Shown here in pieces: positions 3 to 29,939 of a stretch of DNA of 44,716 bases. The notes under the pieces are model-generated. The model was not told where the DNA came from and searched no databases. It saw only the letters and a list, made by a program, of their open reading frames with translations. This DNA comes from Candidatus Gastranaerophilales bacterium (lineage in GTDB: Bacteria; Cyanobacteriota; Vampirovibrionia; Gastranaerophilales; Gastranaerophilaceae), in NCBI GenBank assembly GCA_944322935.1, contig CALUQO010000021.1, positions 1 through 44,716 on the forward strand, given 5' to 3'. Within the stretch, counting starts at the first letter, position 1; every line of letters starts with the position of its first letter. The position numbers and the translations under genes were made by a program.

Positions 3-77
3 GTGTCGGTAGCTCACCGTTGAATCTTTAACGAAGTTAAAGTTCAACTATATTTATTTTTTTTATCCGACTGAGCT
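3..77. repeat. Partial tRNA-Arg copies flanking a hairpin
   Basis: Bases 3-16 repeat the first 14 bases of the tRNA-Arg gene at 109-122. Bases 65-77 are the exact reverse complement of tRNA bases 117-129 (the D-arm). Between them, 19-48 fold into a hairpin: GTTGAA/TTCAAC and CTTTAAC/GTTAAAG around a GAA loop, with one bulged base. This looks like debris of a tRNA copy or of an element that used the tRNA gene. The mechanism is inference. Confidence 0.6.
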
Positions 78-84
78 TGTATGA

Positions 85-90
85 TATAAT
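85..90 (+). promoter_or_regulatory. -10 element of the tRNA-Arg gene
   Basis: A perfect TATAAT lies 18 bases upstream of the mature tRNA 5' end. No good -35 box is visible at the usual spacing; the antisense tRNA fragment (65-77) lies across that position. Confidence 0.5.
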
Positions 91-108
91 TAGTTTATTC
101 ATAACCCT

Positions 109-182
109 GTGTCGGTAGCTCAGTCGGATAGAGCGGCAGTCTCCGAAGCTGCAGGTCGGGGGTTCAATTCCCCCCCGGCACA
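109..182 (+). tRNA. tRNA-Arg (anticodon CCG)
   Basis: A full cloverleaf can be drawn. The acceptor stem 109-115 pairs with 175-181 (seven pairs, one U-G), with discriminator A at 182. The D-stem is GCTC (118-121) with GAGC (131-134). The anticodon stem 136-140 pairs with 148-152 around the loop CTCCGAA, giving anticodon CCG, which reads CGG (Arg). The T-stem GGGGG (158-162) pairs with CCCCC (170-174) around TTCAATT. The 3' CCA is not encoded, so it must be added after transcription. A terminator follows at 202-245. Confidence 0.95.
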
Positions 183-263: not shown

Positions 264-615
264 CTAATCTAGTGTCGCAGTTGCTGCCGGCTGACCGCAG
301 CCAGCACCTGCTCCCCCTTGCATTCTTTTGCCTTCTTTTTCCACTCTGCCGAATAAAAGCTGACTAAATGTCAGGCTTTATTTTTATGAGAGGCTTTGAT
401 TTTGTGAAAATTGTAAAAATGGGGGCTTCACTATGTGAACAATGTGTCACTCGCCTACACTTAACTTCGTTAAGTTTCCCTGACAGGCTCACAAGTATCG
501 CTTACGCTCTACTGTTCGCTTTGTCAAAAAATTCGTTCACGTCGCTTACCTCTCACAAAACCAGCCACTGGCTGCTTTTGTTCGGCAGAGCCTTATCACG
601 AATTTTTCTCGAACA
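264..615 (-). repeat. Dispersed intergenic repeat, long copy
   Basis: Read on the minus strand, this stretch shares four collinear exact blocks with 20802-20922: 591-615 (25 bases), 524-547 (24), 440-450 (11) and 264-313 (50, itself a hairpin). The shorter copy lacks the three segments between the blocks. Those segments here hold further hairpins, including ACTTAAC/GTTAAGT with a TTC loop near 459-475 and the stem at 556-580. No convincing gene lies inside. With the terminator and the small gene at 632, it accounts for most of the 183-981 gap. Confidence 0.85.
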
Positions 616-20801: not shown

Positions 20802-20922
20802 TGTTCGAGAAAAATTCGTGATAAGGAGCCAAGCGACGTGAACGAATTTTTTGAGTGACACATTGAAAAGGTGAGCAGGTGCTGGCTGCGGTCAGCCGGC
20901 AGCAACTGCGACACTAGATTAG
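20802..20922 (+). repeat. Dispersed intergenic repeat, short copy
   Basis: This is the compact version of the repeat at 264-615 in opposite orientation. Blocks 20802-20826, 20831-20854, 20855-20865 and 20873-20922 match the long copy exactly (25, 24, 11 and 50 bases). The last block folds as TGCTGGCTG/CAGCCGGCA around CGGT. It ends 20 bases before the gene at 20943 and so forms that gene's 5' leader. Confidence 0.88.
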
Positions 20923-29129: not shown

Positions 29130-29321
29130 TATATAGGAATCAAAACCTCTAAAAAAAATTTTTGTCAGTGTATGAACGTATTAATTTTTGATACTATCAC
29201 ATTTTACTTTGAAGTGTACCCTTAAAAACGTAATTGATGAGTAGGACAATTAATTAATTTATAAAAAATGTTAGATAAAAAAATAAAGATTTATGCATTC
29301 TTTGCACCCCATTCTTTGAAA

Positions 29322-29401
29322 AGAACTCTGTTCAAAATGATTGAGTATCATTTTGAATAGAGGCAGGCTAAGTCAAAAGCGCAGCTTTTGCGTGCCGTAT
29401 A
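29322..29401 (+). repeat. Mosaic repeat, left copy
   Basis: Block 1 AGAACTCTGT (29322-29331), a 10-pair stem with loop TGAGT (29332-29356), block 2 (29357-29372), a 7-pair stem with a three-base loop (29374-29390) and block 3 CGTGCCGTATA (29391-29401). All 37 block bases recur exactly in the inverted copy at 29748-29829, while both stems differ. Confidence 0.85.
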
Positions 29402-29747
29402 GTAATTGTGCCCCCAAGTTCACTATTAAAAGACAATGGTATATTTGTATTATCCTTGAGTTATCGTGAAGCCATTTTTCAGGCTTCGCCACAGCTCAGC
29501 CGAAAAAGAAGGCAACCTCCCGACCTGATGCTCCGTTCATACAGAAAGTAACACAAACTTAAGCTCGGCAACTCGGGCTATAAAAATTGCTTTTCTTAGA
29601 TAAATTAAAGTGATTGTTATAATTACATAGCCCTCAAACAAACCTCGCTCGTAGTTGTTTGGCGGAATCGAACGGGGCTTTGCCCCATGCGCAGGCGGAC
29701 GTTACTCCGCCGGAGCGTTCGTATTCCAAGACTCGTTTCTTAATTGT

Positions 29748-29829
29748 TATACGGCACGCAGATACTTCGTATCTGGCTTAGCCTGCCTCTATGTAAAACG
29801 TGCCACTGGCACCTTTTACACAGAGTTCT
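29748..29829 (-). repeat. Mosaic repeat, right copy
   Basis: Reverse-strand partner of 29322-29401. Blocks lie at 29820-29829, 29777-29792 and 29748-29758. The first stem is replaced by GTAAAA-GTGCC/GGCAC-TTTTAC with an ACT loop and one C-C mismatch (29793-29819). The second is replaced by CAGATAC/GTATCTG with a TTC loop (29759-29775). Confidence 0.85.
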
Positions 29830-29939
29830 TACAAAGGTCGGCTATGATCTACATACATAAATAATAATGTTTTTATTTTAAATACGTCCTACTGATTGAT
29901 TACGTTTTTTGGGGGACAGATCATACCTGCCGAATACTT

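Follow-up and report, generated by a model that had tools for sequence, protein, structure and literature searches.

Hairpin modules with common feet and variable, complementary stems at tRNA ends and in a non-coding carrier of Candidatus Gastranaerophilales

Known hairpin repeats and the modules of the window

REPs and REPINs are short extragenic palindromes that are present in numerous copies and frequently form inverted pairs (Di Nocera et al., 2013, PMC3733652; PMC3116915), and in REPINs the ends are kept while the middle of the hairpin varies with compensatory changes (2011 REPIN paper, PMC3116915). In TIRtrons and TIRYTs, RAYT genes are flanked by inverted repeats that are not related to the GTAG REPs, and some of these repeats make up dispersed families (PMC3733652). 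The repetitive hairpin-forming and double-hairpin elements of mitochondria are tiny, intergenic, sometimes tandem or doubled, and their enzyme is unknown (PMC2800124 and works cited therein). Finally, template switching can create and maintain stems, and hairpins maintained in this way explain double-sided stem changes without G-U intermediates as well as inverted copies (Monttinen and Loytynoja, 2022, PMC8794818).

We analysed a stretch of 44,716 nucleotides of a Candidatus Gastranaerophilales genome, here called the window. Two hairpin modules lie in inverse orientation within a single non-coding element of 352 bp at 264–615. Module A (344–393, plus strand, CTCTGCCGAATAAAAGCTGACTAAATGTCAGGCTTTATTTTTATGAGAGG; 59 bits) consists of the foot CTCTGCCGAA, the stem TAAAAGCTGAC/GTCAGGCTTTA with the loop TAAAT, and the foot (T)GAGAGG. 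Module B (549–590, minus strand, CTCTGCCGAACAAAAGCAGCCAGTGGCTGGTTTTGTGAGAGG; 66.7 bits) has the same feet around the stem CAAAAgCAGCC/GGCTGgTTTTG, which contains a G.G mismatch and is closed by the loop AGT. The start CTCTGCCGAAnAAAAGC and the end (T)GAGAGG are common to both. A preliminary description had placed the two segments at these positions and had seen common feet around differing, pairing stems; the sequence and the folds of the stems as single-stranded DNA (z −2.6 for module A and −4.3 for module B) bear this out. The first stem pairs as described, but its details had to be corrected: one G is bulged, and the 3′ side is T-rich and longer. Copies of this stem type that are shorter read GTCAGGTTTTATGAGAGG.

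Module B had also been said to follow the plan of a hairpin near 29.8 kb. Indeed, the hairpin at 29786–29825 (minus strand; 45.7 bits; z −7.7) is built alike: its mismatch is G.G (C.C when read on the plus strand), its inner pairs number five, and its loop is AGT (ACT on the plus strand). The feet described for the pair at 344–590 do not extend to this region, where they read CTCTGTG/ACATAGAGG in the right hairpin and CTCTGTT/AATAGAGG in the left one (29326–29363, plus strand; loop TGAGT; z −7.5). Both regions belong to one superfamily and are therefore not independent cases, although the one had been taken as independent support for the other. The surrounding stretch 29230–29900 forms another mosaic element, made of pieces that are present about a hundred times across the genome in differing combinations. 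The second hairpins of many units (e.g. 29375–29395 of the window, or the one after the module of locus L145) have three-base GAA, GCA or GTA loops, which are very stable in DNA.

The modules resemble REPs and REPINs as extragenic palindromes of many copies (83 copies of about 38–50 bp, the REP criterion being 20–40 bp) whose conserved ends enclose a hairpin-forming middle that varies by compensatory changes. They differ in that an unpaired GTAG or CGTC foot tag is missing, the feet being CTCTGCCGA and GAGAGG, in that the apical loop recurs, in that they are concentrated at duplicated tRNA ends, and in that they do not flank a RAYT; in this genome the RAYT has GTAGGTTGGG palindromes on both sides. 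This also separates them from TIRtrons and TIRYTs, since the RAYT here has GTAG palindromes as its flanks and is simply situated within a module. With the mitochondrial elements they share the form of a tiny hairpin repeat without a known enzyme, but they are bacterial rather than organellar, and whereas the sponge mitochondrial elements have conserved stems and varying loops, the modules show the reverse. The template-switch hairpins of PMC8794818 represent a mutational process in RNA genes, while the modules form a mobile repeat family. The details of this family are new and its general kind is known, be it REP/REPIN-like or like the mitochondrial hairpin elements. The literature on repeats in Gastranaerophilales/Melainabacteria and on tRNA-associated mobile hairpins yielded nothing specific.

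Spread of the family and the carrier element

A genome search for CTCTGCCGAANAAAAGC with at most two mismatches gave 54 matches compared with four for the reversed pattern, far more than chance would give. The single covariance model that the preliminary description had proposed (R1, trained on twelve hairpins of both element types) recovered a large family with 83 matches in the 2.3-Mb genome. Neither of the outcomes that were to speak against the description, a lack of further copies or inserts without pairing, was found; the observation is real and the predicted test succeeded. Joint recovery of both types by a model trained on both is no independent proof, which is provided by the spread to other species. 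By the same model, all 23 genomes of the genus contain 12–127 hairpins, two other genera of the family 10–12, and 15 genomes of the order that fall outside the family 0–5 each.

A pattern of the feet and one loop, with the arms left free, matched at least 110 stretches in public genomes. Among the matches listed, all came from Candidatus Gastranaerophilales or unnamed gut MAGs, except for one labelled Muribaculaceae. This contig (JAMPCZ010000013.1, locus L136), on which the module lies upstream of tRNA-Met, probably stems from Gastranaerophilales and was mislabelled or misbinned. The pattern had no match in the viral contigs scanned, and a phage origin was rejected on this ground. Equally rejected was a known RNA family, as tRNA was the sole match of Rfam 15 at the gathering score in the window.

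The element at 264–615 (plus strand; CTAATCTAG ... CTCGAACA; z −4.4 as folded single-stranded DNA) serves as a carrier of modules A and B and has 55 BLAST matches in its own genome. In the window it sits between tRNA-Arg with a terminator-like repeat and an ORF at 982, whose product we take to be an N-acylglucosamine-6-phosphate epimerase. It is a recent, lineage-specific insertion, because the orthologous site of sister species (seven aligned across the junction) is without it. Non-autonomous elements of the IS200/IS605 type carry a subterminal hairpin, leave no evident duplication of the target and prefer a particular 5′ flank. Judged by its sequence, the carrier seems similar: its ends are constant among copies, an imperfect hairpin lies subterminally on the left (277–311, plus strand, GCAGTTGCTG..CAGCACCTGC) and is paired in the carrier fold, AT precedes 12 of the 13 left ends listed, and no target duplication or repeated flank was evident at the AT-rich sites, which blur the junction. 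The right end, however, differs from that type, and the genome has no Y1 transposase besides the RAYT.

Each module occupies a slot that is filled in some carrier copies of this genome and empty in others. The left slot reads CTTTTTCCA-[module A]-CTTTGATTT in 11 copies and CTTTTTCCA-AAAT-CTTTGATTT in six, which may represent one lineage. The right slot reads GATAAG-[module B]-AAGCG in 17 copies and GATAAG-GAGCC/TAACA-AAG in three, among them the short copy at 20802–20922 of the window (minus strand), which has neither module and carries GAGCC in place of module B. Some of these differences could be losses. All filled left slots contain stems of the first type and all filled right slots stems of the second, which does not support the stem exchange that had been proposed as an event.

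Covarying stems and the tRNA neighbourhood

The general plan of the family is a hairpin of about 38–50 bp with fixed feet, of which CTCT and AGAG can pair. The stems vary yet stay complementary; G.G or tandem G.A mismatches are frequent in them, and apical motifs are few (ACTAAATGT, C-NGT-G and TTGAGTA). When loci of the own genome, which had been picked through module searches, were scanned by the feet alone, 39 of 41 loops fell into these three types (ACTAAATGT 22, CNGTG 16, TTGAGTA 1), and the remaining two were near variants of them.

Among 100 of the public pattern matches listed there were 64 different arm pairs. Of the six innermost free positions a mean of 5.48 was paired, compared with 3.86 (maximum 4.22) when the arms were re-dealt 2000 times. 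For 68 distinct members of 44 nt, in which the search pattern imposed the invariance of the feet and of the ACTAAATGT loop, the covariation score was 0.342 versus 0.038–0.090 for partners slid by 1–3 columns. Ten of the 12 stem pairs were changed on both sides, and at column pair 17–31 GC, CG, AU and UA were all present, with one unpaired case. G.T pairs made up only 11 of 579 standard pairs where shuffled columns predict 66; the G.U intermediates expected from RNA drift are thus scarce. Most mismatches were either G.G at a single position (31) or tandem G.A/A.G close to the base. The rarity of G.T, the covariation and the small number of loop types together argue for a hairpin of DNA in which one arm is copied from the other by template switching and/or the arms are under tight selection, although covariation could also be obtained through selection on an RNA hairpin.

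Across species, hairpins that differ at a single base pair do so on both sides in 27 sequence pairs and on one side only in 14; many stems are thus connected through concerted single-pair steps. Wholesale swapping of stems was rejected on these counts in favour of stepwise concerted change, and the exchange of the preliminary description is better read as a concerted change of arms within a family than as a swap of ready-made stems.

The modules are frequent near tRNA genes: of 100 listed public matches, which share one loop type, 47% have a tRNA gene at most 300 bp away, compared with 6.7% of random positions at the same loci. In 50 of the 52 tRNA-associated cases, which represent 14 tRNA species, the tRNA is located 3′ of the hairpin on the strand of the hairpin, 40 times in sense and ten times in antisense. 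The nine bases before the hairpin (one skipped) recur in the neighbouring tRNA in 42 of the 52. The polarity is largely set by the joining of the module to a tRNA fragment, so that the 50 cases do not amount to as many independent observations.

The usual layout is a promoter side with a tRNA 5′ end, the hairpin, the rest of the D-arm, a spacer and the intact tRNA; the alternative is its mirror image with the tRNA 3′ end and terminator, in which the module lies on the strand opposite to the transcript. Some joins are exact inside the tRNA D-arm (GCAGTTG^[ACTCT..GAGAG]GTAGC), and inverted copies of tRNA arms adjoin modules. An identical module occurs next to both tRNA-Lys and tRNA-Leu in the own genome (C28:818 and C58:7067). 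Of the 30 tRNA genes detected in this genome, 16 have exact 9- or 10-mer copies of a tRNA end at a distance of at most 350 bp; these are copies of the 5′ end at eight genes and of the 3′ end at 13, and some of them enclose other palindromes. Several tRNA-derived units fold as junctions closed by tRNA-derived arms (z −3 to −12). The window itself contains a unit at 3–108 (plus strand; z −3.7 as single-stranded DNA) with a 5′ tRNA fragment (3–16), a hairpin (19–48), an inverted D-arm copy of 13 nt (65–77, the reverse complement of 117–129) and a spacer, directly upstream of an intact tRNA-Arg(CCG) at 109–182 (plus strand; Rfam RF00005, 67.8 bits; anticodon by ARAGORN). It is laid out like the module-bearing units elsewhere but encloses another hairpin.

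Tandem arrays of a tRNA 5′ end plus hairpin also occur, with identical units and periods of 90–140 bp. Identical arrays of a truncated tRNA 5′ end plus hairpin were seen directly 5′ of an intact tRNA at L170 130–443 and at C12:30498–30741 of the own genome. A dispersed multi-branched palindrome, GGATTTGCGGACGGAC...GCAAATCC, lies in duplicated tRNA 3′ ends on contigs C22, C43 and C58 (loci L242, L237 and L260).

Origin and maintenance of the modules

No mobilising enzyme for the modules was found; the RAYT, as the one Y1 protein of the genome, has its own GTAG palindromes. This RAYT (NF047646, 131 bits) interrupts a module at its apex, beside tRNA-Phe (L049 1222–1963; about 23.5–24.2 kb of contig C7 in genome G000). 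Together with the carrier, which shows a preference in its 5′ flank and no evident duplication of the target, and with the REPIN-like combination of conserved ends and a compensating, variable middle (PMC3116915), this location would fit ordinary REPs or REPINs of that Y1 HUH transposase with an unusual foot, the RAYT having been lost in some species. Such an origin is nevertheless quite unlikely. Both sides of the RAYT are bounded by its own palindromes GTAGGTTGGG...CCCAAC, which are present in 11 genome copies and are of the classical GTAG type, and the module does not bracket the other RAYTs of the genus. RAYT matches occurred in 12 of the 23 genus genomes, seven of them above the cut-off, and modules are also present in the 11 genomes without a match, among them the module-rich G006 (127) and G014 (116), so that module number does not track the presence of a RAYT. 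The RAYT was therefore rejected as owner of the modules, and from its own palindromes and its lack in these two genomes the module is probably not its REP.

Selection on a transcript would account for the strong covariation if the modules were RNA elements (bidirectional terminators, or processing or protein-binding hairpins) that are close to tRNAs because of a role in operon termination or processing. The closed-junction folding of the tRNA-derived units and the A-rich and T-rich arms agree with this; the latter are terminator-like on both strands, with four matches found at modules A and B in 1–1000 versus 0.7 expected, the T run being part of the stem. We consider this rather unlikely, given that G.T pairs are depleted, that the modules at tRNA 3′ ends are antisense, where a transcript would bear the complement of the asymmetric loop, and that the module is missing from the slots of many copies of the same element. 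The depletion of G.T and the position of the tRNA 3′ of the hairpin, whether sense or antisense, speak for a DNA element. Spread without any transposition of modules, by tandem duplication or recombination of tRNA flanks and copying of carriers with later divergence, is in keeping with the identical tandem arrays and with carriers that move by themselves, but it is improbable in view of identical modules in unrelated flanks and of the clean presence or absence of modules in one carrier slot.

The modules occur in many sequence contexts, in carrier slots that exist with and without them, and in partial copies of tRNA ends; the mechanism of their movement we infer. We favour, with some reserve, REP-like mobile DNA hairpins whose arms are kept complementary by template switching and by selection on feet and loop. 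A module would be gained as one unit from a folded single strand, through a replication or repair process or through a trans-acting enzyme that recognises feet and loop, and would survive best at redundant targets such as duplicated tRNA ends and non-coding carriers. Template switching inside the hairpin would transfer a change from one arm to its partner, and the stems would drift with pairing kept; such paired drift between fixed feet would make stems look exchanged. Only tentatively do we suggest the further-reaching combination of an undescribed mobile hairpin in which a folded single strand is handled by non-RAYT machinery that reads the feet and the apical loop, is inserted with fixed polarity into duplicated tRNA-end arms and has its stem rewritten by template switching.

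In this family nature offers a large set of hairpins whose ends are fixed and whose stems vary freely. Compensatory change can be followed in it almost without intermediates, and whether template switching corrects palindrome arms becomes directly testable. The unusual concentration of modules at tRNA ends calls for an explanation. With this genus, non-photosynthetic relatives of the cyanobacteria join, genus-wide, the lineages that bear short mobile palindromes.
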